Source of the DNA: Falsiroseomonas oleicola
Lineage (GTDB): Bacteria; Pseudomonadota; Alphaproteobacteria; Acetobacterales; Acetobacteraceae
Reading direction: 5' to 3'
DNA length: 64,000 nt
Assembly (NCBI RefSeq): GCF_019029495.1
Contig: NZ_JAERQM010000007.1
Coordinates: 1-64,000, forward strand
Shown piece by piece: positions 1,102-13,878 of this stretch; the stretch's first letter is position 1; the number at the start of each line of letters is the position of its first letter. A program made the position numbers and the translations under genes. The notes beneath the pieces were generated by a model that saw nothing but the letters and a program-made list of their open reading frames with translations, had not been told where the DNA came from and did no database searches.

Positions 1102-2040
1102 TCACCGCAGCGGCCGCGGCACCCGGAAGGGCAGCATGGCGTACATGGCGGGGGAGGCGAAGCGGTCCAGCGACAGGCTTTCATGGATCGCCGTCGCCTC
1201 CTGCCCCAGCAGCCGGGTGCGGATTTCGGAGCGGGAATAGAAGGGCGCATCCACCAGCGTCCGCACCAGCCGCGCCTGCCCCGCCTCCGCCCGCGTCGGC
1301 CTCGCGATGCGCCACAGGGTTCTGGGCAGTTCCACCGGGGGCGGCAGCTCGAAATCCGTCACCGCGCCGTCCCGCCCCACCCGCAGGGCCAGGGATTGGT
1401 CCGTGCCGTCGCGCCGCTGCGCGTTGTAGAGGATGGCGGTGGCGTCGGGCATTGGCGCCCGGCACCAGTCCCAACCAACAAAATCCTGTTCCAGCGGGGC
1501 GCTGCCCCAGTTCGTGTCGAAATAGGCGGCGCCGGACCAGCGCAGCGCCGGGCTCTCCAGCGTCACCTCCACCGAGGCCCGCGCCGCGATCGGGTGCCAA
1601 TGGTGGCGCCCCTCGGAGTCGAGCTGGAAGGCGCGGGTGGACAGCGCCTCCGGCCGCAGCACCACGCTGCCGCGCAGGGGGCGGGGCAGGGGGGCGGTGA
1701 TTTCTTCGATTCGGACGGTCAGGGCCTCGCCGTCCCAGTGCAGGGCGCTCGGGCCGATCTGCAGAACATCGGCGCTTTGGCGCAGCGCGCCGCGCCGGCG
1801 GTCGGTCATCGCCCAGCCGCCGGGCGCGCCATACAGCGCGACATGCAGGCAGCAGTGGTTCTCCGGGTCCGCCGCGGCGCCGCCGCGCTTGGCCAGGCTG
1901 TACCAGGGGGAGAAGACGGTGCCGATGAAGGCGATGATGGTCAGCCCATGCCGGCCATCGGCGCTCAGCGCGTCCAGATACCACCAGCCATAGCCGCGTG
2001 GCCCCGCCTTGCGGTCGAAGGCCCAGCCCGCTGCCGTCAT
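1102..2040 (-). CDS. crtC: Acyclic carotenoid 1,2-hydratase (hydroxyneurosporene synthase)
   Basis: Adds water across the C1-C2 double bond of acyclic carotenes such as neurosporene or lycopene, an early step towards the spheroidene and spirilloxanthin series. The 312-aa product has the family hallmarks: a YGWWYLDALS start, GTVFSPWYSLAKR, NHCCLHVALYG and the YFDTNWGSAPLEQDFVGWDW block near residue 175. No signal peptide is apparent. The start codon overlaps the crtD stop by 4 bases (ATGA), so the two are translationally coupled in the usual crtDC order. crtF (O-methyltransferase) is not in the window. Confidence 0.92.
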   Translation of the reverse strand: MTAAGWAFDRKAGPRGYGWWYLDALSADGRHGLTIIAFIGTVFSPWYSLAKRGGAAADPENHCCLHVALYGAPGGWAMTDRRRGALRQSADVLQIGPSALHWDGEALTVRIEEITAPLPRPLRGSVVLRPEALSTRAFQLDSEGRHHWHPIAARASVEVTLESPALRWSGAAYFDTNWGSAPLEQDFVGWDWCRAPMPDATAILYNAQRRDGTDQSLALRVGRDGAVTDFELPPPVELPRTLWRIARPTRAEAGQARLVRTLVDAPFYSRSEIRTRLLGQEATAIHESLSLDRFASPAMYAMLPFRVPRPLR

Positions 2041-3509
2041 CCGCGATCCCCCATCACCGCTTGTGCCGCCAGCCGCCCCGACAGCGCCGCCATGGCCAGC
2101 CCCGCCCCCGGATGGGTGGTGCCGCCGGCCAGATAAAGGCCTGGCAAGGCGGTGCGCGCCGCCGGCCGGCTGAAAATCGATTGCCAGCCATGCACCGCCT
2201 GGCCGTAGAGCGCGCCACCGCTGCCTGGCGCCTCCGCCTCATAGTCCCGCGGCGTCACCGCCAGCACGGCGTCCCGGCGCAGTGTGACCCCCGCGCGCGC
2301 CATGGCGGCCAGGCTGGCCGCCTCCACTGGGGCCGGGTCGGCCGGTCGCGCATCGGCGCGGGCCGGGGCGGCGACCAGGGTCATCAGCGGTTCCGCGCCA
2401 CCGGGGGCGCCGTCTGGGGCGGGGGCGGGGTCGTGCCGCGCCTGGGCCCAGAGCGTCACGGTCGGCACCTCCGGCATCTGGCCCCGGGCCAGGGCAGCAT
2501 ATTCGGCGACCGGGTCCGCCGGGTGGAACACCGTCTGGCGCGGCAGGTCCGGCCCCTCGGCCCGCCCCGCCATGGCCCAGCCGAAGGCGGAAAAGGACCG
2601 GCGCGCGGCCGGCAGGCGCGGCACCGCCTTGGCCGCCGCCGCGCCGAAATGCCCGGCGGCCAGGCTCGCCGCATCGGCGGCCAGCACCACCCGCCGCGCC
2701 GCGATGCGCGTGTCGTCGGCCAGGCGCAGCCCGGCGATGCGGCCGCCCTGCACCAGCAGCTCCGCCACCGTCGCGCCGTGACGGATTTCCACCCCCTGCG
2801 CCACCGCCACCGCCGCCAACGCCTCCGCCAGCCGTCCCATGCCGCCTTCGATGCCGTGCAGGCCGGACATCTCGACATGCGCCACCAGCATCAGCGTGGC
2901 CGGGGCGAGCAGCGGGGAGGAGCCGACATAGGCCGCCATCCGGCCGAACACCTGGCGCAGCCGGGGATTGTCGAAATCCCGCCCCAGCGCATCCCACAGC
3001 GTGCCGAAGGGGGAGGTGCCGAGCTTCCCCGCCAGCGCACCCAGCGCCAGCATCCCGGGCCGCTGCGCGGTCAGGAAGGGCGCTTCCAGCGCGTCGTGGC
3101 AGCGGGTGGCGCGGGCCATGAAGTCGCGAAAGCCGCGCGCGGCCGCCGGGCCGGCGAAATCGCCGATCGCGTCCTCCGCCGCCCGCCGGTCCGCCAGCAG
3201 GTCGAGTTGCTGGCCATCGGGCCAGATATGGCGGCCAAGCACGGCAAGCGGGCGGAGCATCAGATGATCCTCCAGCCGCGCCCCGCCGGCGGCGAACAGC
3301 GCCTGGAACACCGGCAGCAGGGTCAGCACCGCCGGCCCGGCATCCACCGCCAGGCCGCCCGGATGCAGCCGTCGGATCCGCCCGCCCGGCGCCGCGGCGC
3401 GTTCCAGCACCAGAACGGGGCGGCCGGCGGCGGCCAGATGGATGGCCGCCGCCAACCCGCCAACCCCGGCCCCGACCACCAGGACGGGTGAATCTCCGCG
3501 CGATAGCAT
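2037..3509 (-). CDS. crtD: Methoxyneurosporene/hydroxyneurosporene 3,4-desaturase
   Basis: FAD-dependent desaturase that introduces the C3-C4 double bond into hydroxylated or methoxylated acyclic carotenoids. The 490-aa protein opens with a dinucleotide-binding fold (VLVVGAGVGGLAAAIHLA, about 9-26, then VLVLERAAAPGGR). It ends with the phytoene-desaturase-type FAD motif GLYLAGGTTHPGAGLAMA. Other CrtI-family desaturases are alternatives, but the coupling to crtC and the neighbouring ppsR favour CrtD. No Shine-Dalgarno is evident before the start. On the same strand a TTGACA hexamer (3544-3539) lies about 30 bases upstream, inside a PpsR-like palindrome, so repression by PpsR is likely. Confidence 0.9.
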   Translation of the reverse strand: MLSRGDSPVLVVGAGVGGLAAAIHLAAAGRPVLVLERAAAPGGRIRRLHPGGLAVDAGPAVLTLLPVFQALFAAGGARLEDHLMLRPLAVLGRHIWPDGQQLDLLADRRAAEDAIGDFAGPAAARGFRDFMARATRCHDALEAPFLTAQRPGMLALGALAGKLGTSPFGTLWDALGRDFDNPRLRQVFGRMAAYVGSSPLLAPATLMLVAHVEMSGLHGIEGGMGRLAEALAAVAVAQGVEIRHGATVAELLVQGGRIAGLRLADDTRIAARRVVLAADAASLAAGHFGAAAAKAVPRLPAARRSFSAFGWAMAGRAEGPDLPRQTVFHPADPVAEYAALARGQMPEVPTVTLWAQARHDPAPAPDGAPGGAEPLMTLVAAPARADARPADPAPVEAASLAAMARAGVTLRRDAVLAVTPRDYEAEAPGSGGALYGQAVHGWQSIFSRPAARTALPGLYLAGGTTHPGAGLAMAALSGRLAAQAVMGDRG

Positions 3510-3538
3510 GGGCGGATTGGGCGGCAGGCCTCGCCCTA

Positions 3539-3556
3539 TGTCAAGTTGAGTGGACG
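3539..3556. promoter_or_regulatory. Degenerate PpsR/CrtJ-like operator, crtD-proximal
   Basis: TGTCA-N8-GGACG spans 18 bases, the same length as the PpsR consensus TGTCA-N8-TGACA. The left half is perfect and the right half matches at 3 of 5 positions. It starts 30 bases upstream of crtD, and its left half read on the minus strand is a TTGACA hexamer, so a bound repressor would cover a crtD promoter element. Confidence 0.4.
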
Positions 3557-3582
3557 GAATCAGCCAAAATCGGTCGAATTGT

Positions 3583-3600
3583 CGTCAATATAACTTGACG
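3583..3600. promoter_or_regulatory. PpsR/CrtJ-like operator, central
   Basis: CGTCAA-N6-TTGACG is a perfect 6-bp inverted repeat spanning 18 bases. It differs from the PpsR consensus TGTCA-N8-TGACA only at the two outermost bases, and symmetrically. It lies 74 bases upstream of crtD and 131 bases upstream of the chosen ppsR start. CrtJ/PpsR tetramers are known to bind pairs of such palindromes cooperatively. Confidence 0.55.
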
Positions 3601-3651
3601 TTCAGGTCGCGTTTCCCCAGTTAGGAGACAAGGTGGTTTATCCATATGGAC

Positions 3652-3673
3652 TGTGTCGTCATATGGGTACACA
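3652..3673. promoter_or_regulatory. PpsR/CrtJ operator upstream of ppsR
   Basis: The palindrome is TGTGT-N3-CATATG-N3-ACACA, and it contains a canonical TGT-N12-ACA PpsR box at 3654-3671. It ends 57 bases before the chosen ppsR start and lies 142 bases from crtD. This suggests autoregulation of the ppsR operon. A GTG at 3653, which would give a longer reading frame, falls inside the palindrome, and this argues for the later start. Confidence 0.6.
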
Positions 3674-3730
3674 TCTCGTCGTGCCGTGTCCCGTCGCCTC
3701 ACCGATGCGCCAGCCGTACCGGTGGCCGTC

Positions 3731-5116
3731 ATGGGGCCGGCCGATCAATCGGATTCCCGCATGACCCGTGTCGCCGTCATCCAGCCCGATATCACCCTGA
3801 ACCTGGATTGGGAGGGGGTCATTCGCGACGCCAGCCTCTCCGACGCCATTCCATCGGAGCGGGTGCAGGACTGGCTCGGGCGGCCCTGGATGGAAACGGT
3901 GGGGGAGATCGCGGGCCTCCAGGTGCGGCGGATGGTGGAGGATGCGCGCGCCAGCGGCGTCTCCGCCTATCTCCAGATCACCCAGCGCTTTCCCTCCGGC
4001 CTCGAACTGCCGATCGAATACACCACCGTCCGGCTTGGCGGTCAGGCCGGGCTGATCGCCGTCGGCAAGAACCTGCAGGCGGTGGCGGAGCTGCAATCGC
4101 GCCTGGTCGCGGCGCAGCAGGCGCGCGAACAGGACTACTGGAAGCTGCGCGAGATCGAGACCCGGTCCCGCCTGCTGTTCGATGCCTCCTCCGAGGCCGT
4201 GCTGGTCATCGCCGCCTCCACGCTCCGCATCGTCGAGGCCAATCCGGCGGCGATCCGCGAACTCGGCATGGCGCCGGGCTGGAATTTCTCCGACGAGGTC
4301 GCGCCGCGCGACCGCGCCGCGCTGCGCGATGTGCTGCTGCGCGCCCGCGAACAGGGGCGCGCGCCCGGCATCATGGTGCATCTGGGCGCGGAGGCGACGC
4401 CCTGGCTGCTGCGCGCCTCGCTGATGGCGCGCACGCCGGGACCGGTCTTCCTGATCCAGCTCAGCCCCGCCGCGACCGCCGCGGCCACCACGCTGCCCCG
4501 CGCCCAGAAGCTGCGCGGGGATGAGTTGCTGGAGGATCTGCCGGACGGCTTCGTGGCCCTGGACGAGGATGGCACGATCCGTCGCGCCAACCGCACCTTC
4601 CTCGACCTGGCCCAGGCCGGCACCGAGGCCTCCATCATCGGCGAACGCCTGGACCGCTGGCTGGCCCAGCCGGGCATGGATGCCGGCGTGCTGCTGACCA
4701 CCATCGCCCAGCATGGGGAAGCCCGGCTGTTCACCACCCAGCTCACCGGCAATCTCGGCTCGGAGGTCGAGGTGGAGATCTCCGGCTGCGCCGTCAGCCG
4801 CGACGGGCTGCGCATGACCGGCCTCATCATCCGCGATGTCGGCCGCCGCGTGCTGCCTTCGGGGGAGGCGGCCGCGCTCCGCGCCGCGCTCGGCACGCTG
4901 GCCAATGATGTCGGCCGGGTGCCGCTGCCGATGATGGTGCGCAACACCGCGGCGCTGGTGGAACGCGCCTGCATCGAGCAGGCGCTGCGGCTGGCCAATG
5001 GCAACCGCACCGCGGCCGCCGATGCGCTCGGGCTGAGCCGCCAGAGCCTCTATGCCAAGCTGGAGCGCTACGAGATTGGCGAATCGCGCGAGGCCAGCGA
5101 GGACGGCGCGCGGTGA
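3731..5116 (+). CDS. ppsR: PpsR/CrtJ-type repressor of photosynthesis genes
   Basis: Redox- and light-dependent DNA-binding repressor of bacteriochlorophyll, carotenoid and light-harvesting genes. From 3731 the protein is 461 aa, close to CrtJ. The order is an N-terminal PAS-like region (LNLDWEGVIRD ... LGRPWMETV), a coiled segment (LQSRLVAAQQAREQDYWKLREIETR), two PAS domains (about 140-250 and 265-385) and a C-terminal Fis-type helix-turn-helix (NRTAAADALGLSRQSLYAKL). Two cysteines are visible: one in VEISGCAV, and one in RACIEQAL at the start of the HTH, the place of the redox-active CrtJ cysteine. The later start brings the operator at 3652-3673 into the promoter. The stop overlaps the bphP GTG start by 4 bases. 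Confidence 0.9.
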   Translation: MGPADQSDSRMTRVAVIQPDITLNLDWEGVIRDASLSDAIPSERVQDWLGRPWMETVGEIAGLQVRRMVEDARASGVSAYLQITQRFPSGLELPIEYTTVRLGGQAGLIAVGKNLQAVAELQSRLVAAQQAREQDYWKLREIETRSRLLFDASSEAVLVIAASTLRIVEANPAAIRELGMAPGWNFSDEVAPRDRAALRDVLLRAREQGRAPGIMVHLGAEATPWLLRASLMARTPGPVFLIQLSPAATAAATTLPRAQKLRGDELLEDLPDGFVALDEDGTIRRANRTFLDLAQAGTEASIIGERLDRWLAQPGMDAGVLLTTIAQHGEARLFTTQLTGNLGSEVEVEISGCAVSRDGLRMTGLIIRDVGRRVLPSGEAAALRAALGTLANDVGRVPLPMMVRNTAALVERACIEQALRLANGNRTAAADALGLSRQSLYAKLERYEIGESREASEDGAR

Positions 5117-7317
5117 CCATCGACCTGCCCGGCGGATCCGCCGGATCCCCGGCCTTCGGCACCGCCGACCTGTCGAATTGCGAGCGGGAGCAGATTCATC
5201 TCGCCGCCTCGATCCAGCCGCATGGCGCACTGCTGCTGCTGCGGGAGCCTGACCTCACGGTGCTCCAGGCCAGCGCCAATGCCGCCGCCTTCCTCGGCCT
5301 GTCCACCCCGGCCCAGGGCCAGCGCCTCGGCGCCATCGCGCCCGACATCGCCGCGGCCATCGCGCCGCTGCTGGCCGATGCGCTGGATGTGGTGCCGGCC
5401 GCCGCGCGCATTCCGCCGGGCCAGGTGGGCGTGCCGCTGGATGCGCAGATCCACCGCCCGGCCGGCGGCGGGCTGGTGCTGGAACTCGAACGTGCCGCGC
5501 CGGATGACGACGCGACGCAGCGCCTGGAACCCGCTTTGCAGGCGATCCTCGGCAGCTATGCCCTGCGCCCGCTTTGCGAGGAGGTGTGTCGCATCTTCCG
5601 CCGCCTGACCGGCTATGACCGCGTCATGGTCTATCGCTTCGACGAGGACGGCCATGGCGAGGTCCTGGCCGAGGAACATGCGGCGGGGATGGAGCCCTAT
5701 CTCGGCAACCGCTACCCGGCCTCCGACATCCCGGCCATCGCGCGGCGGCTCTATATCCGCAGCCGCGTCCGGGTGGTGACCGATATCCACTATGCGCCGG
5801 TGCCGCTGGAGCCCCGCCTGTCGCCGCTGACCGGGCAGGACCTGGACATGTCGCTGTGCATCCTGCGCAGCACCTCGCCCATGCATGTGCAGTATGTGAA
5901 GAACATGGGCGTGGGCGCGACGCTGGTCGCCTCCATCCTGGTGGGCGGGCGGCTCTGGGGGCTGATTTCCTGCCATCACCAGACCCCGCGCCGCACCCCC
6001 TTCGCGATGCGCGCCGTCACCGAATTGCTGGCGGAGGCCGTCGGCACCCGCATCGCCGCGCTGGAATCCTTCGTCCAGTCCCAGGCGGAACTCGCCGTGC
6101 GCCGCCTGGAACAGCGGATGATCGAGGCGATCACCCGCGATGGCGACTGGCGCACCGCGCTGTTCGACAATGCCCAGACCCTGCTGCTGCCGATGGGCGC
6201 CAGCGGCGCCGCCCTGCTGTTCGAGGGCCAGATCCAGACCGCCGGCGAGGTGCCCGGCACCGCCGGGCTGCGCGACCTCGGCACCTGGCTGGACAGCCGG
6301 CCGCGCGCCCCGGTCATCGCGACCTGTGCCCTGTCGGGGGAGGCGCTGCATCTGGCCGGGCTGACGCGGGTGGCCAGCGGTGTGCTGGCCGCGCCGATCT
6401 CCACGGCGCTCGGCGAGTATCTGATCTGGTTCCGGCCGGAGCAGGTCTCCACCGTGACCTGGGGCGGCGATCCGACCAAGCCGGTGATGGTGGGCGACGA
6501 TCCGCGCGACCTGTCGCCGCGCCGGTCCTTCGCCAAATGGAACCAGGTGGTGGAGGGGCGGGCGGAGCCCTGGTCGCCCAAGGACCTCGCCACCGCGCGG
6601 CTGATCGGCGACACCGTCACCGATGTGGTGCTGCAGTTCCGCTCCGTCCGCATGCTGATCGCGGAGGACCAGCTGGCCCAGGTGCGCCGGCAGGTCGGGC
6701 TTTCCGCCCAGCCGGTGGTGATCTGCGACCCGGCCGGCAATATCAACCTGCGCAACGAGGCCTTCGACCGGCTGCTGCCCGGCCTGCGCGGCGCCGCGCC
6801 GCGCCGCATCGACCATCTGCTGCCCTATTTCGCCGATTCCGCCGAGGTGGGCCGGCGGCTGCGCGACGTGCTGGAGAATCGCCGGTCCTGGCGCGGGGAG
6901 ATCCGGCTGGCCGATGGCCAGGGCGCCGGCCAGACCGGGGGCCGCCCGGTGCTGGTGCGCGCCGATCCGGTGTTCTCCGCCCCCGATCGCGTGCTCGGCT
7001 TCGTCTTCCTGTTCAACGACCTGGCCGAGCGCAAGGCGGCGGAGGCGGCGCGCCGCCGCTTCCAGGCCGGGATCGAGGCCGGCAGCCGCCGCCCCGCCGG
7101 CCGCTTCGACCGCCAGGCGGACCTCGCCTACCAGGCGATCCTGGCCTCGGTGGTGGAGAATGCGCAGCTCGCGGCGCTGGAGATCGCCGATGGCGTGGAT
7201 GTGGCGCAGATGCCGGACCTGCTCGAATCGGTCCGCGCCTCCGTCGCCCGCACCGCCACGGTGCTGGAGACGCTGATCCGCCACGCCAGCACACCGCCGC
7301 CCGCCGGGGATGGCTGA
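5113..7317 (+). CDS. bphP: Bacteriophytochrome with PAS output domain and no kinase
   Basis: Red/far-red photoreceptor of 734 aa that binds biliverdin. The order is PAS (about 15-125, with the candidate chromophore-binding C23), GAF (about 140-320), PHY (about 325-510, with PRRSF at 469-473 in the tongue) and an extra PAS domain (about 520-650). The GAF domain carries PASDIP at 202-207, SPMHVQYVKNMG around H258, and CHH at 287-289. The last 80 residues are helical, and there is no H-box or ATP-binding domain. This PAS-GAF-PHY-PAS layout matches RpBphP1 and Bradyrhizobium BrBphP, which act by binding PpsR. The start is a GTG overlapping the ppsR stop. Direct control of the adjacent PpsR is inferred from layout and position. 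Confidence 0.92.
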   Translation: MTIDLPGGSAGSPAFGTADLSNCEREQIHLAASIQPHGALLLLREPDLTVLQASANAAAFLGLSTPAQGQRLGAIAPDIAAAIAPLLADALDVVPAAARIPPGQVGVPLDAQIHRPAGGGLVLELERAAPDDDATQRLEPALQAILGSYALRPLCEEVCRIFRRLTGYDRVMVYRFDEDGHGEVLAEEHAAGMEPYLGNRYPASDIPAIARRLYIRSRVRVVTDIHYAPVPLEPRLSPLTGQDLDMSLCILRSTSPMHVQYVKNMGVGATLVASILVGGRLWGLISCHHQTPRRTPFAMRAVTELLAEAVGTRIAALESFVQSQAELAVRRLEQRMIEAITRDGDWRTALFDNAQTLLLPMGASGAALLFEGQIQTAGEVPGTAGLRDLGTWLDSRPRAPVIATCALSGEALHLAGLTRVASGVLAAPISTALGEYLIWFRPEQVSTVTWGGDPTKPVMVGDDPRDLSPRRSFAKWNQVVEGRAEPWSPKDLATARLIGDTVTDVVLQFRSVRMLIAEDQLAQVRRQVGLSAQPVVICDPAGNINLRNEAFDRLLPGLRGAAPRRIDHLLPYFADSAEVGRRLRDVLENRRSWRGEIRLADGQGAGQTGGRPVLVRADPVFSAPDRVLGFVFLFNDLAERKAAEAARRRFQAGIEAGSRRPAGRFDRQADLAYQAILASVVENAQLAALEIADGVDVAQMPDLLESVRASVARTATVLETLIRHASTPPPAGDG

Positions 7318-7909
7318 GACCATGCCGGGGGATGCCGCCAGGCAGGCGCTGCGGCAGGCCACCGGGGCCGTGCATGAACGGCTGCATGGCGTGCCAGTCT
7401 TCGCGCGGCTGGCCTCGGGCCGCATCGACACCGGCGAATATGTGCTGCTGCTGCGGCGGCTGCTGGGCTTCCACCTGGGGGTGGAGGCGGCGCTGGGTGG
7501 CGGACCCTCCCTGCTGCCCTATGGCATCACGCTCGAACAGCGGCGGCGGTCGCCGATGCTGGTGGCCGATCTGGTCGCGCTGCGGGCGCCGCCGCTCGCC
7601 GCCGTCGCCGACCTGCCCGCCCCATCCTGCGCCGGCTTCGCCATGGGCTGCCTCTATGTGATGGAGGGTTCGACCCTGGGCGGCCAGCATCTGGCGCGGG
7701 CGCTGGACGGGGTTCTGCCGGGCGAGGATGGGCGCAGCTTCCTGCGCGGCTATGGCGCCCGGCATGGTGCGATGTGGCGCGAATGCTGCACGGCGATCGA
7801 GGCCTGCGGCGCGGAATCCGGCCGGCTCGCCGGGATGATCGCCGGGGCCGAGGCCACCTTCGCCCGATTCGAGAGCTGGTTCGCGCCGCCTGGAGCGCGA
7901 TGCATTTAG
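7310..7909 (+). CDS. bphO: Biliverdin-producing heme oxygenase
   Basis: Opens haem to biliverdin IX-alpha, the chromophore of BphP, releasing CO and iron. The 199-aa cytoplasmic protein shows the family start LRQATGAVHERLHG, with H22 the likely proximal haem ligand, and the distal-helix block MEGSTLGGQHLAR near residue 122. It overlaps the end of bphP by 8 bases, so chromophore and apoprotein should be made together. Confidence 0.9.
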   Translation: MAETMPGDAARQALRQATGAVHERLHGVPVFARLASGRIDTGEYVLLLRRLLGFHLGVEAALGGGPSLLPYGITLEQRRRSPMLVADLVALRAPPLAAVADLPAPSCAGFAMGCLYVMEGSTLGGQHLARALDGVLPGEDGRSFLRGYGARHGAMWRECCTAIEACGAESGRLAGMIAGAEATFARFESWFAPPGARCI

Positions 7910-7947
7910 TCACCGCGCCTTAAGTCCTCACGGCGCAGGATGGGGCG

Positions 7948-8781
7948 ATGGAGTACCCCTTCGCCCTGGGCCGTCGCGGCCTGCTCGCGCTGCTGCCGCT
8001 GTCGCCTGTGCTGGCCGGGGCGGAGGCCCCGCTGCGGATCGGCGGCACCGGCATGGCGCTGGTCATCACCCGGCGCCTGCTCGACCTGTATCGTGGAGCG
8101 GAGAATGGGCCGGGTGTCGTCGTGCTCGACAGTCTCGGCACCTCCGGCGGGCTGGCGGCGCTGCGCAGCGGGCTGGTCGATATCGCGCTGTCCTCCCGCA
8201 TGCCGCGGCCGGAGGAGCAGGCCATGGGGCTGGTGGCCCAGCCGCTCGCACGCACCCCTGTCGCCTTTGCCACGCGTCATGACACGCCGGTCGAGGGGCT
8301 GAGCCAGGCGGAGGCGGTCGCCATTCTGTCGGGCGATACAGCCGACTGGCCGCGCGGTGGACAGGTCCGGCTGGTGCTGCGCGACCGCAGCGAGACGGAT
8401 TGGGCCGTGATGGCCACCGCCAGCCCGGCCATGGCCGAGGTGATGCAGCGGGCGCTGAACCGACCTGGCCTCGCCTTGGCCGTGTCGGACCAGGAGAATG
8501 CCGAGCTGCTGGAACAGCTTCCCGGTTCTTTCGGCCTGACCACGCTGGGCCAGACACGCGCCGAGCACCGCCAGCTGCGTCTGCTGGCGCTGGATGGCGT
8601 CCCCCCGGGGTTGGAGGCCATGGCCGCAGGCAGCTATCGCTTCGCGCGTGGCATCTTCGCCGTGACCCGCAGCGATGCACCACCCCTCGTGCAGGCCGTG
8701 CTGCGCTTCCTCGGCACGCCGCAGGCCCAGCGCAGGCTGCGCGATTCCGGCTTCCTGCCCGTGACGGAGCATGCGGCATGA
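7948..8781 (+). CDS. PstS-like periplasmic ligand-binding protein
   Basis: Protein of 277 aa with a probable export signal (residues 1-25, GRRGLLALLPLSPVLAGAEA). A phosphate-binding-protein-like fold follows: LRIGGTGMAL near the start, the GTSGGLAALRSGLVDIALSSR segment that resembles the PstS ligand loop, and a C-terminal FLGTPQAQRRLRDSGFLP. No Pst permease or ATPase is nearby. It lies 38 bases after bphO, and its stop overlaps the start of the GGDEF/EAL gene by 4 bases. It therefore probably acts as a ligand sensor or partner for that membrane enzyme, not in import. The ligand (phosphate or another oxyanion) cannot be read from the sequence. Confidence 0.7.
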   Translation: MEYPFALGRRGLLALLPLSPVLAGAEAPLRIGGTGMALVITRRLLDLYRGAENGPGVVVLDSLGTSGGLAALRSGLVDIALSSRMPRPEEQAMGLVAQPLARTPVAFATRHDTPVEGLSQAEAVAILSGDTADWPRGGQVRLVLRDRSETDWAVMATASPAMAEVMQRALNRPGLALAVSDQENAELLEQLPGSFGLTTLGQTRAEHRQLRLLALDGVPPGLEAMAAGSYRFARGIFAVTRSDAPPLVQAVLRFLGTPQAQRRLRDSGFLPVTEHAA

Positions 8782-10646
8782 GCAGGCTGGGGGAGAGGGC
8801 GATGCCGGACGCTCGGCCGGGCGAGGCCAGCGCGGCGGATGCCGAAGCGGCGCTGGCGCGGGTTGTCAGCGGCTTCGCCGCCACCATTGCCCTGCTGTTG
8901 GCGCTCGCGGTGCCCGCGATGCATGCCTGGTCCGCCTGGCGGGAGGAAAACGCGGCGATGCGGGCGGAAGTCCGCGTCATCGCGCATGGCATCACCCAGA
9001 TGGCCACCCGCATGCCCGATCTGTGGATCTATCAGGACGCCCGGCTGCGCGGCCTGCTGCATGCGGGCGATGGCACCGATTCCAGCCTCTGGGTGCAGGA
9101 CCTGGACGGGAAGGTCCGGGCGCAGGTGGTGATGGACCTGGCCTGGCCGCGGCAACAGCTGCGGGAGCCGGTCTATGACAGCGGCACGGTGGTGGGCGCC
9201 GCGGTGATCGAGCGCTCCCTCCGGCCAATGCTGTGGCGCACCGCCGTGGTGGCGGTGCTGGCGCTGCTGGCGGCGGCCGGCGCCTATGCCGCGCTGCGGA
9301 TGCTGCCCCTGCGCATGCTGCAACGGGCGATCGGCCGCGCCACCTATCTGGCGACGCATGACCAGCTCACCGGCCTGCCCAACCGCCGGCTGTTCCATGA
9401 CCGGCTGGCCCAGGCCGCGCTGCGCGCCAGCCGCTACGGCACCGGCTTCGCCGTGCTGGCGCTCGACCTCGATCGGTTCAAGGAGGTGAACGACACGCTG
9501 GGCCATGCGGCGGGCGACGAGCTGCTGCGCCAGGTGGCGAATGCGCTGGGCGCCACGCTGCGCGACAGCGACACGCTGGCGCGCCTCGGCGGCGACGAAT
9601 TCGCCATCATCCAAAGCAATGCCGAACAGCCGCGCTCGGCGGAGGCGCTGGCGGCGCGGCTGGTGGAACGGCTGTCGCTGCCTTTCGAACTGCATGGCAA
9701 CCTGGCGCATATCGGCACCAGCATCGGCATCGCGCTGAGCGGCCCGGTGGCGGAGGGTGCGGAGACGGTCGCCGGGGAACAGGTGCTGCACGACGCCGAC
9801 ACGGCGCTGTATCGCGCCAAGGCCGAGGGCCGCAGCACCTACCGCTTCTTCTCCGCCGAGATGAACCAGGCGCTTCAGGAACGGCGGGAGATGGAGCGCG
9901 ACCTGCGGGAGGCCGTGGCCGGCGGCCAGTTGCGTCTGCACTACCAGCCGCAGGTGGATCTGGCGACGCAGCGCGTGGTGGGGCTGGAGGCGCTGCTGCG
10001 CTGGGCGCATCCCCGGCGCGGCCTGGTGATGCCCGACCGCTTCATCGCCTTGGCGGATGAAGTCGGCCTGCTGAACCGCATCGGCGAATGGGTGCTGCTG
10101 GAAGCCTGTGCCACGGCCAAGCGCTGGCCGGGGCAGCGCATGGCGGTGAACATCTCCGCCAACCACTTCCAGAGCAACGACTTCCTGCGCGCGGTGCGCC
10201 ATGCGCTGGAGACGACGGGGCTGGATCCGGAGCGGCTGGAGATCGAGATCACCGAGGGCGTGCTGCTGACCGACACCGACCGCACCCTGGCGACGCTCGG
10301 CGCGCTGCGGGAGATGGGTGTCTCCGTCGCCATGGATGATTTCGGCACCGGCTATTCCTCGCTCGGCTATCTGCACAAGTTCCGCTTCGACAAGATCAAG
10401 ATCGACCGCAGCTTCGTGCACAGCCTGTCGAACGACCCGCAATCCATGGCCATCATCCGCGCCGTCATCGCCATCACCCAGGCGCTCGGCCTGCGCTGCA
10501 ATGCGGAGGGTGTGGAAAGCGCCGCACAGGCCGCGATGCTGCGGGCGGAAGGCTGCACGGAAGCGCAGGGCTGGCTCTATGGCCGGGCGGTGCCGGAATA
10601 TGAGCTGCATGTGCTGATCGGCGCCACCCAGGACCGCGCCGCCTGA
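8778..10646 (+). CDS. Membrane diguanylate cyclase/phosphodiesterase (GGDEF-EAL)
   Basis: Makes and/or breaks cyclic di-GMP. The 622-aa protein has a membrane segment at about 29-50, a periplasmic stretch of about 100 residues and a second segment at about 153-172. The GGDEF domain follows, with the intact signature GGDEF at 271-275 and an RDSD inhibitory site at 262-265. The EAL domain (EALLRW at 404-409, DDFGTGYSSLGYL at 520-532, KIDRSFV at 541-547) keeps its catalytic motifs, so both activities look possible. The start is fixed by the ATGA overlap with the PstS-like gene, which suggests that the two proteins work together across the inner membrane. Confidence 0.88.
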   Translation: MSRLGERAMPDARPGEASAADAEAALARVVSGFAATIALLLALAVPAMHAWSAWREENAAMRAEVRVIAHGITQMATRMPDLWIYQDARLRGLLHAGDGTDSSLWVQDLDGKVRAQVVMDLAWPRQQLREPVYDSGTVVGAAVIERSLRPMLWRTAVVAVLALLAAAGAYAALRMLPLRMLQRAIGRATYLATHDQLTGLPNRRLFHDRLAQAALRASRYGTGFAVLALDLDRFKEVNDTLGHAAGDELLRQVANALGATLRDSDTLARLGGDEFAIIQSNAEQPRSAEALAARLVERLSLPFELHGNLAHIGTSIGIALSGPVAEGAETVAGEQVLHDADTALYRAKAEGRSTYRFFSAEMNQALQERREMERDLREAVAGGQLRLHYQPQVDLATQRVVGLEALLRWAHPRRGLVMPDRFIALADEVGLLNRIGEWVLLEACATAKRWPGQRMAVNISANHFQSNDFLRAVRHALETTGLDPERLEIEITEGVLLTDTDRTLATLGALREMGVSVAMDDFGTGYSSLGYLHKFRFDKIKIDRSFVHSLSNDPQSMAIIRAVIAITQALGLRCNAEGVESAAQAAMLRAEGCTEAQGWLYGRAVPEYELHVLIGATQDRAA

Positions 10647-10673
10647 GCGCTGTGCCCAGGCGGCGGGCGGGCC

Positions 10674-11396
10674 TCAGATTCCGCCGTAGTTTGCCCGCGT
10701 GATCCAGTAGTCCCAGGCGCGGGCCAGCGGCATGTCGGAGAGCAGCATGGCTGCGGTCTTCTCCACCTCGCCCGGGGTCAGATAGTCCGGCGCGCCATGC
10801 GGGATGCTGGCCAGAACCATCTCCGCATTGTGCTTCATGTAGACGGCGGTGAAGACGGCGGCGCGCAGGTTCACCCCGACATTGCAGGCGCCATGGCCGC
10901 GCAGCATGACGCTGCGGTTGGCGCCCAGCGCGCGGGCCAGGGAATGGCCGCGTGGCAGGTCGTCGATCAGCATGTTGGTGTCGCCGAATTCCGGCTGGCT
11001 GTCCCAGAGCGGCACGTCGGAGCCCATGACGCTACCCATGTGGAAGATCGGCTTCAGGGTCAGCGTGCGGACCACGGTGAAGGGGATGACGCTGCGCGCA
11101 TGGTGGTGGACCACGGACATCACATCCGGCCGCGCCATGAAGATGGCGGAATGCAGCGCGCGTTCGGAATACATGCGCCGCCCGTTCTGCGCGACCGGCG
11201 TGCCGTCCAGCTCGAATTCCATGATGTCATCCGCCGTCACCGCCACCGGGCTGCGGCTGCGCGACAGGAAGTAGCGGTCGGCGCGTTCCGGATGGCGCAG
11301 CGAGACATGGCCGAAATCGTCGATCACATCCTCCCGCGCCAGAATCCGGTTGGCGAGCACCAGCTCGCGGATCGCATGCGCCACGGCGTCGCTCAT
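10674..11396 (-). CDS. Class II aldolase/adducin-family protein
   Basis: Metal-dependent lyase or decarboxylase of 240 aa. Family signs are FGHVSLRHP near the start, the metal-binding VVHHHARSVIPF block around residue 98, and MLRGHGACNVG around residue 165. Members include fuculose-phosphate aldolase, ribulose-phosphate epimerase and decarboxylases of dihydroxy-aromatic acids. The operon partner is an aromatic-ring hydroxylase, so an aromatic or gentisate-type substrate is more likely than a sugar phosphate, but this is inference. The start at 11396 gives a 4-base overlap with the hydroxylase; an in-frame ATG at 11447 would run deep into that gene. Confidence 0.78.
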   Translation of the reverse strand: MSDAVAHAIRELVLANRILAREDVIDDFGHVSLRHPERADRYFLSRSRSPVAVTADDIMEFELDGTPVAQNGRRMYSERALHSAIFMARPDVMSVVHHHARSVIPFTVVRTLTLKPIFHMGSVMGSDVPLWDSQPEFGDTNMLIDDLPRGHSLARALGANRSVMLRGHGACNVGVNLRAAVFTAVYMKHNAEMVLASIPHGAPDYLTPGEVEKTAAMLLSDMPLARAWDYWITRANYGGI

Positions 11397-12577
11397 CTCG
11401 TTTCCTCCTGTGACCCGCCATAGAGCCAGGCGAGCATGTCCTGCCAATCGGTCTGCGTCTTCGCGGCCATGATGCTGTTGCGCAGCGCCGCATGCGGCCC
11501 GGCCGGGTGGTAGATGTGGTCGCCCACGGCGCGGGACTGCAATTGCACCCGCGCCGTGCGCAGCAGCCGCGCATCGCGATAGGCGGCCAGCGCCGGCGCC
11601 ACATCGCCGTCATGCGCATGCATCATCTGGGCGAGGCACACCGCATCCTCCATCGCCATGCAGGCGCCCTGCGCCAGGTATTGCAGCGTGGGATGCGCGG
11701 CATCGCCGAGTAAAGCCACGCGATCCTGCACCCAGTTCGAGACCGGGTCGCGGTCGCAGAGCACCCAGAGCTTCCAGTCGCGGCCCTGATGGATGATCGA
11801 CCGGGCGAGGGGGTGCACATGCTCGAAGCCCGCAAAAACCTCCCCGGCGGAGACCGGCTTGCCCGCGACGGGCTCGGGCGCGTCGTTGTGGCAGGTGACG
11901 ACCAGGTTGAAGGAAGCCCAGCCCTGCAAGGGGTAATGCACGATATGGCACTTTGGGCCGGCCCAGAGCGTCGCCGCGTTCCAGCGCAGCGATTCCGGCA
12001 TCTGCTCGGTCGGGATCACGCTGCGATAGGTGGTGTGGCCGGAAACGCGCGGCGCGCCATCCCCCACCAATTGCCGGCGCACCTTGGACCATAGCCCATC
12101 CGCGCCGATCAGCGCCCGCCCGCGCAGCCTTTCGCCATTGGCAAGATGCGCGGTGACGCCGCCGCCATCCTGCTCATACCCGACAACCTCCGCCGAGGTG
12201 CGCAGCGTGATGGAATCGCTGCCGCGGCAGCCTGCCAAAAAAACGGCGTGCAGGTCGCCGCGGTGGATGACGGCATAGGGGGCGCCGAAGCGACTGCGAA
12301 AGGCCTCGCCGAGGTCGATATGGCAGATCTCCTCCGCCGTCAGCGCATCCATCAGCCGCAGCTTGTCCACATGGATCGCCATGGCCCGCGCGGTCTCGCC
12401 GATGCCGAGCCAGTCGAAGGCGTGGAAGGCATTGGGGCCGAGCTGGATGCCGGCGCCGACCTCCCCCATCGCCACCGCCTTCTCCAGCACCGTCACGCCA
12501 AAACCCTGCCGGGCCAAAGCAAGCGCGGTGGCCAGCCCGCCGATGCCGCCGCCGGCGACCAGGATCGGCTCGCTCAT
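11393..12577 (-). CDS. FAD-dependent aromatic hydroxylase, 3-hydroxybenzoate 6-hydroxylase-like
   Basis: Flavoprotein monooxygenase of 394 aa that uses NAD(P)H and oxygen to hydroxylate an aromatic acid. It shows the FAD fold ILVAGGGIGGLATALALA at the start, the middle GADGLWSKVRRQL (DG motif) and the C-terminal VALLGDAAHPTLQYLAQGACMAMEDA. The strings EVGAGIQLGPNAFHAF and RWNAATLWAGPKCHIVHYPL are those I associate with 3-hydroxybenzoate 6-hydroxylase, which makes gentisate. Salicylate hydroxylase is the main alternative. It overlaps the genes on both sides by 4 bases. No gentisate dioxygenase lies in the window. Confidence 0.8.
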   Translation of the reverse strand: MSEPILVAGGGIGGLATALALARQGFGVTVLEKAVAMGEVGAGIQLGPNAFHAFDWLGIGETARAMAIHVDKLRLMDALTAEEICHIDLGEAFRSRFGAPYAVIHRGDLHAVFLAGCRGSDSITLRTSAEVVGYEQDGGGVTAHLANGERLRGRALIGADGLWSKVRRQLVGDGAPRVSGHTTYRSVIPTEQMPESLRWNAATLWAGPKCHIVHYPLQGWASFNLVVTCHNDAPEPVAGKPVSAGEVFAGFEHVHPLARSIIHQGRDWKLWVLCDRDPVSNWVQDRVALLGDAAHPTLQYLAQGACMAMEDAVCLAQMMHAHDGDVAPALAAYRDARLLRTARVQLQSRAVGDHIYHPAGPHAALRNSIMAAKTQTDWQDMLAWLYGGSQEETR

Positions 12578-13536: not shown

Positions 13537-13587
13537 GGTGTTTGTTTCCTGCCCTGTGGCGGCAGGATCGCGCGCTGGCTGGCGCTG

Positions 13588-13878
13588 TCAATCGTCCCTG
13601 ACGGCAGCCTCCCGCAGCCAGGCCGCCAGCTCCGCCCGCCGGTCGCCGGGCAGGGCGCGTTCCAGATGCAGCGTCACATGGCCGGGGCGGCGGTCGGGCG
13701 GTACGCGGCAGGCATGGGTCCAGACCTCCCCGCCCCGCCGGTGCAGCACGACATACAGAAGGCAGGGCCGACACCGCCCGGCGCGGTCGCGCCACTGCGC
13801 GGTGCCGACGAATTCCGCCTGGTCGTCAGGCCCGAGAAACAGGGAAAAATCCGGGCGGTCGCCCGTGCTGTCCAGCAT
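13588..13878 (-). CDS. Small hypothetical cytoplasmic protein
   Basis: Protein of 96 aa starting MLDSTGDRPDFSLFLGPDDQ. The start at 13878 is supported by GGAGG 5 bases upstream; the frame stays open further upstream, but that part is unlike coding sequence. It contains GTAQWRDRAGRCRPCLLYVVLHRRG and an acidic/basic C-terminal helix. There is no signal peptide or membrane segment. I do not recognise a family. The 263 bases upstream (13879-14141) hold no other gene that I can support. Confidence 0.5.
   Translation of the reverse strand: MLDSTGDRPDFSLFLGPDDQAEFVGTAQWRDRAGRCRPCLLYVVLHRRGGEVWTHACRVPPDRRPGHVTLHLERALPGDRRAELAAWLREAAVRDD

Follow-up and report, generated by a model that had tools for sequence, protein, structure and literature searches.

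The window analyzed here, a 64,000-nucleotide stretch (positions 1 to 64,000 of contig NZ_JAERQM010000007.1) of the 5.6-Mb genome of Falsiroseomonas oleicola, contains a run of five intact open reading frames (ORFs) on one strand, from 3731 to 10646: the photoreceptor cassette genes ppsR, bphP, and bphO, followed by genes for a PstS-like periplasmic binding protein and a membrane GGDEF-EAL receptor. A first-pass annotation of the window had proposed that pigment repression and biofilm or motility signaling by cyclic di-GMP (c-di-GMP) share one light input here. We lean toward the view that the run is a two-part operon, probably co-transcribed. A more specific reading, in which it is a genus-specific two-input gate with a single PpsR-controlled transcript, light setting the dose of c-di-GMP and a periplasmic ligand setting its direction, is possible though rather improbable. 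The one-strand layout, the lack of a terminator at the junction of the two parts, the recurrence of the order within the genus, and the PpsR-like operators ahead of the run support the proposed shared light input in part; against it stand the autonomy of the pair elsewhere, its absence from two close relatives, the variable gap behind bphO, and the lack of a known direct route from BphP. What the gene positions suggest is a link between light and c-di-GMP that could act at the transcript level.

The genus sample consisted of 15 genomes, the window's included, among them Falsiroseomonas tokyonensis, Roseomonas ponticola, F. stagni (G209), F. algicola, and an Acetobacteraceae metagenome-assembled genome; the wider family sample held 397 genomes. 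The genus is phototrophic, with pufLM in 14 of 15 genomes; an RpBphP1-like bphP is likewise present in 14 of 15, and G208 lacks both. Among the matches listed from the open-licence literature, a body that leaves subscription journals mostly outside, we recognized no paper on the five-gene order or on a pair made of a PstS-like protein and a GGDEF-EAL protein, and the words phytochrome, PpsR, and c-di-GMP are absent from the main text of a paper on photosynthesis in Acetobacteraceae (PMC10715153).

Layout of the run and its junctions

The features of the region are collected in Table 1. The overlaps are short throughout: GTGA (4 bases, 5113 to 5116) between ppsR and bphP, 8 bases (7310 to 7317) between bphP and bphO, and ATGA (8778 to 8781) between the binding-protein and receptor genes. 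With the 38-base gap behind bphO, these agree with the spacing that the first-pass annotation had described. The start of ppsR is uncertain (GTG at 3653, ATG at 3731, or ATG at 3761).

A terminator or a separate promoter was sought at the junction between bphO and the binding-protein gene. A scan of positions 3000 to 11500 returned one terminator-like site, on the minus strand within the GGDEF-EAL gene, and none at the bphO junction, which folds no better than its shuffled versions (z = -0.24). No sigma-70-like site was detected in the same interval, although GC-rich promoters are easily missed. The junction is unremarkable in four of the five relatives that share the order as well, and only G209 (F. 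stagni) has strong hairpins there (z = -2.76), three tandem copies of a GC hairpin in the gap (L083, 8514 to 8647; L107, 7815 to 7960). From bphO to the first ATG, the gap measures 38 nt in the window and 52, 34, 35, 134, and 69 nt in the other five genomes, the relatives' start codons being uncertain.

Table 1. Genes, junction, and putative operators of the five-gene run and its neighbors
Feature	Coordinates	Strand	Evidence
crtC-like gene (carotenoid 1,2-hydratase), divergent neighbor	1102..2040	-	NF045922, 312 bits, under cutoff of 400; kept in genus
crtD-like gene (1-hydroxycarotenoid 3,4-desaturase), divergent neighbor	2037..3509	-	NF045637, 518 bits, under cutoff of 580
PpsR-like palindrome near crtD, degenerate in window (TGTCAAGTTGAGTGGACG)	3539..3556		Sequence pattern
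PpsR-like palindrome CGTCA-N8-TGACG between crtD and ppsR	3583..3600		Such a palindrome in 10 of 14 genus sequences
ppsR, PAS-HTH_8 repressor	3731..5116	+	TIGR02040, 443 bits, cutoff of 275
bphP, type 3 bacteriophytochrome, no kinase domain	5113..7317	+	4gw9 (RpBphP1), 774 bits
bphO, heme oxygenase for biliverdin	7310..7909	+	PF01126, 37 bits, cutoff of 23
bphO/binding-protein junction, 38 bases	7910..7947	+	Neither terminator nor PpsR box seen
Periplasmic binding protein, PBP_like_2/PstS fold	7948..8781	+	PF12849, 64 bits
Membrane GGDEF-EAL receptor	8778..10646	+	GGDEF and EAL domains; two transmembrane helices around small periplasmic domain
Class II aldolase-like gene, convergent, marks end of run	10674..11447	-	PF00596

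The photoreceptor cassette

By its sequence, ppsR-bphP-bphO is a repressor-photoreceptor cassette of the known RpBphP1/PpsR2 type. Pfam recovered the domains PAS_2, GAF, PHY, and PAS in BphP and no HATPase, and the best solved relative of the protein is RpBphP1 (4gw9); together with the TIGR02040 score of PpsR, which exceeds the cutoff, this upholds both the kinase-less photoreceptor and the PpsR-BphP pairing of known type that had been read from the window. The C-terminal PAS domain aligns to 4gw9, and some 90 residues extend beyond it, the solved 4gw9 stopping before the two HOS helices. The chromophore Cys was found in all 10 aligned BphP rows and the DIP motif in 9 of them (the exception is G201), and PRRSF is kept in the BphP of the window. 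No other protein of the genome gave a PHY-domain match, and two BLUF matches exist in addition.

A ppsR match lies directly upstream of bphP at all 34 bphP loci examined, an arrangement also described for Bradyrhizobium ORS278 and Thiocapsa roseopersicina (PMC5362033). In Rhodopseudomonas palustris, far-red light causes RpBphP1 to bind RpPpsR2 (PMC6899989). In G017 (L061, 12311 to 12868), bphO is located upstream of ppsR rather than downstream of bphP, and G004 has two ppsR-like matches about 5 kb apart, the second at L062, 61 to 732.

PpsR-like operators ahead of the run

The PpsR/CrtJ site is given as TGTN12ACA (PMC5362033, PMC6899989). Between crtD and ppsR we found palindromes of the form YGTCA-N8-TGACR, a variant of this site. 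Twelve of 14 genus sequences, all but those of the window and L090, have an exact TGTN12ACA some 30 bases from where crtD starts. Elsewhere in the genome of the window, YGTCA-N8-TGACR has five matches, three ahead of bchC and two near or ahead of a crtE-like gene; control loci totaling 460,871 bases yielded 0 matches, and one of four bphP loci scanned in other genera had a match. The patterns make it very likely that the DNA ahead of the run binds PpsR, with crtCD, ppsR, or both as the target. A TGTN12ACA at 3654 was rejected as a PpsR site: its position is not conserved, the 5 such matches in the window are an unremarkable number where 2.7 are expected, and the palindromes that start at 3539 and 3583 make stronger candidates. 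At the bphO junction, none of the six genomes has a TGTN12ACA.

Another PpsR-like palindrome, TGTCAATCGTCCCTGACG, at 13586 to 13603, precedes by 50 bases the operon of TctC, FAD-enzyme, and aldolase genes that runs toward the GGDEF-EAL gene; near that gene, the relatives whose DNA covered this place had no exact match.

Distribution and history of the five-gene order

Recurrence in relatives had been named as a check on the proposal, and the order does recur, in 6 of 15 genus genomes with the window included and at none of 14 loci elsewhere in the family sample; it is seen only inside one genus, where it was lost in places or gained more than once. Its presence in 6 of the 15 shows that the order is not due to chance. 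In every one of the six genus genomes with the binding protein, one copy is located directly downstream of bphO and overlaps the start of the GGDEF-EAL gene by ATGA or GTGA. F. tokyonensis (L105) and F. stagni (L107) are two of the order-bearing relatives. The order persists despite deep divergence: the binding proteins of these relatives are 49 to 59% identical to that of the window, and BphP is 77 to 89% identical. The flanks are as in the window: divergent crtD-crtC on one side and convergent aldolase, FAD-enzyme, and TctC genes on the other.

The pair is absent from six more distant genus members, in five of which bphO and the FAD-enzyme gene point at each other with little or nothing in between; G095, a pairless distant member, gave no downstream flank match. 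It is also absent from G195 (BphP 88% identical), where bphO abuts the stop of the aldolase gene, and from G207 (BphP 89% identical), where other genes, the first of them TctC-like, follow bphO. The TctC-like ORF of G207 (L078, 9211 to 10350) overlaps bphO at its end; the 3' end of the operon looks there like a site at which genes become attached. On the ppsR-plus-bphP tree, presence and absence of the pair require 3 changes, which fit either one gain and two losses, with the gain before the split of eight species, or two gains and one loss.

We considered independent recurrence as strong support and set it aside. The candidate was G143 alone (one locus among the 14 that lie in the family but not in the genus), in which the receptor is a kinase and the module is convergent with bphO. 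At this locus (L091, 5488 to 13279), in another genus, a related binding protein and a PAS-kinase-receiver receptor have AT-rich upstream DNA and are convergent with ppsR-bphP-bphO; in that genus, the module is near bphO in one of three genomes with bphP.

The binding protein and the receptor as a module

A scan with the single binding protein as the query gave no match; with an alignment as the query, a scan of named records gave 39 loci, some of which are contigs already used in the alignment. The loci come from Acetobacteraceae, other alpha- and betaproteobacteria, and Nitrospirota, and the DNA surrounding each extended up to 8 kb on either side, less at contig ends. A match to the receptor sensory half lies downstream of the binding protein at 36 of 39 loci (not at L132, L136, and L143), and at all 37 loci examined of the 39, an ORF of more than 250 amino acids starts between -60 and +120 bases from the end of the binding protein. 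The recognized receptor outputs are GGDEF-EAL or histidine kinase; Pfam analysis of ten receptors gave GGDEF-EAL for two, PAS-GGDEF-EAL for three, and kinase for five. The binding protein and the GGDEF-EAL receptor are a separate, autonomous module.

Nearby bphP genes were found at 5 of the 39 loci, all five in this genus. In the family sample outside the genus, the binding protein occurs in 12 genomes at 14 loci, with bphP near one of them (contig ends limit some). The genus itself has 11 binding-protein matches: 6 with a GGDEF-EAL partner, all behind bphO, 4 with a kinase partner, and 1 with a partner that was not recognized, the last being a third copy in G200. The kinase-type sister copies are located elsewhere in four genus genomes (L098 to L101), are GTGA coupled, and have no bphP in the surrounding DNA.

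In the receptor, a transmembrane helix, a small mixed periplasmic domain (about residues 55 to 150), and a second transmembrane helix precede the GGDEF and EAL domains. The matches to PF12849, GGDEF, and EAL and the two helices substantiate the coupling of a PstS-like protein to a membrane GGDEF-EAL protein that the first-pass annotation had reported. Its statement that the motifs are intact also held: GGDEF, the RxxD inhibitory site, and the tested EAL motifs are present in all six orthologues. Across all 15 pairings of the six genomes, the mean divergence is 0.38 for the binding protein and 0.40 for the receptor sensory half, and it is 0.16 for the GGDEF-EAL half, 0.17 for BphP, and 0.31 for bphO, which is also fast. 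The matched divergence of the binding protein and the sensory half is as expected of contacting partners, though shared relaxed selection would give the same.

This layout, in which a binding-protein gene is coupled to the gene for a membrane receptor with a periplasmic domain, resembles NspS-MbaA, where a periplasmic protein signals polyamines to a bifunctional GGDEF-EAL receptor (PMC8967002). By analogy, the pair most likely works like NspS-MbaA. Separate binding proteins for c-di-GMP receptors, NspS for example, are already known. According to one review, SBP_bac_3 was the only one of the 27 domain families of the PBP clan that had been studied in c-di-GMP networks, a count that concerns domains inside the enzymes (PMC8846402). 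The PBP_like_2 partner may represent a novel type among the binding proteins that serve c-di-GMP receptors.

The predicted fold of the binding protein (AlphaFold pLDDT, 89.6) had its best structure E-value with 4n13 (TMq, 0.56), and 4q8r and 4gd5, both phosphate-binding proteins, reached TMq values of 0.75 to 0.76 at 16% identity. That the nearest solved structures bind phosphate raises the idea of a diverged phosphate sensor, a PstS relative through which the supply of phosphate would act on c-di-GMP, an idea that would be compatible with the two-part operon. We consider this unlikely: the protein scores 47.6 bits against the PstS family TIGR02136, whose cutoff is 206.6, and the Ser-Gly-Thr stretch of 1twy, in the PstS ligand loop, is not conserved in the profile alignment, with RDRSETDW present in the window protein.

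Proposed mechanism and alternatives

If the run works as a two-part operon, BphO would make biliverdin and BphP would bind it, by homology, and light-activated BphP would take PpsR off the operators of pigment genes, as published for relatives and by homology here. The periplasmic protein would bind a small ligand and dock on the periplasmic domain of the receptor, and docking would switch the receptor between c-di-GMP synthesis and degradation, both steps by analogy with NspS-MbaA. The module would be an old addition behind bphO, made within Falsiroseomonas, most simply before the eight-species group split, and the pair is probably transcribed by read-through from the ppsR transcript. Should PpsR repress its own promoter, more of the solute-gated c-di-GMP switch would be made in the light, in step with the pigment genes.

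Several observations weigh against this scheme or against the shared light input of the first-pass annotation. There is no bphP in the surrounding DNA at 34 of the 39 loci or at 13 of the 14 family loci outside the genus, and since the pair occurs elsewhere without a nearby photoreceptor, its main input is most likely a solute in the periplasm rather than light. Two of the four species closest to that of the window, G195 and G207, lack the pair and keep the photoreceptor genes. The flanking genes are conserved as well, and the conserved order is therefore weak evidence of joint function. The length of the gap behind bphO is unconstrained, in G209 the gap contains an array of strong hairpins, and the operators could serve crtCD alone. 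Moreover, a binding-protein gene near a sensor gene need not work with that sensor: three binding proteins near AgtS and AruS gave no evidence of activating them (PMC11113362). In the binding-protein tree, the window and F. tokyonensis are apart from the other four, as in the photoreceptor tree. For BphP, these two differ by 0.11 and are 0.22 to 0.25 from the other four; for the GGDEF-EAL half, they differ by 0.20, and either is 0.20 to 0.24 from the other four. The pair is thus more diverged between the window and F. tokyonensis than BphP predicts, and simple vertical descent fits poorly.

Such points could mean that the two parts are mere neighbors, an autonomous solute-sensing pair with its own promoter sitting behind bphO in a stable region, with light not involved. 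This carries appreciable weight, though short of being probable. The conservation of crtC, crtD, and the d1-d3 flanks, the autonomy of the module elsewhere, the two close relatives without it, and the G209 hairpins all agree with it, as does a segment of about 30 bases before the first ATG that by eye is alike in G200, G203, G209, and G205, where the rest of the gap is unlike, and that could be a promoter or a leader. However, no sigma-70-like site was seen at the junction, with the caution about GC-rich promoters noted above; the gap is 34 to 52 nt in four of six genomes, so there is little space for a promoter; and all six GGDEF-EAL-partnered copies among the 11 genus matches are behind bphO.

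A direct contact of BphP or PpsR with the GGDEF-EAL protein, by which light would switch c-di-GMP synthesis with no change in transcription, seems to us very unlikely. Phytochromes drive c-di-GMP domains when fused to them in one protein (PMC8846402, PMC6899989), and BphP is the sole PHY match of the genome. In the window, however, the photosensory core and the c-di-GMP domain are not fused, the receptor owns a periplasmic sensory domain and a partner, and in 8 of the 14 genus genomes that carry this bphP, the gene is not followed by such an enzyme. The BphP is also of the type reported to act by binding PpsR (PMC6899989), so no direct route to a c-di-GMP enzyme is known.

Comparison with known systems

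If the two-input gate is real, it links pigment production in an aerobic phototroph with life on surfaces or motility. The run offers a testable case of a known light-released repressor whose reach may have been widened to a second messenger by growth of the operon, not by domain fusion, and a natural comparison is provided by species that have or lack the pair at the same site. The pair itself belongs to a binding-protein/receptor system in which the sensory half carries c-di-GMP enzymes in some cases and kinases in others.

With RpBphP1-RpPpsR2 of R. palustris, the window cassette shares the PAS-GAF-PHY-PAS architecture without a kinase, the chromophore Cys, and a ppsR gene just upstream; it differs in continuing with bphO and then with the binding-protein/GGDEF-EAL pair. 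Phytochrome-GGDEF fusions such as IsPadC and BphG likewise link red or near-infrared light with c-di-GMP, whereas in the window a repressor gene comes first, and the photoreceptor and the enzyme are two different proteins. The fold of the binding protein is common to PstS-type phosphate-binding proteins (4q8r and 4gd5), from which it differs in its low identity, in lacking the Ser-Gly-Thr stretch, and in having a receptor gene as its partner. The catalytic half of the receptor is 43 to 46% identical over the aligned parts to GGDEF-EAL proteins of the MorA/MucR/BifA type, a comparison that concerns this half; the structure comparison covered mostly residues 190 to 621. With NspS-MbaA of Vibrio cholerae, the window has in common a periplasmic binding protein beside a membrane GGDEF-EAL receptor; in contrast to that system, the binding protein is of the PBP_like_2 (PstS fold) family, the pair is located behind a photoreceptor operon, and its sister modules carry histidine kinases.

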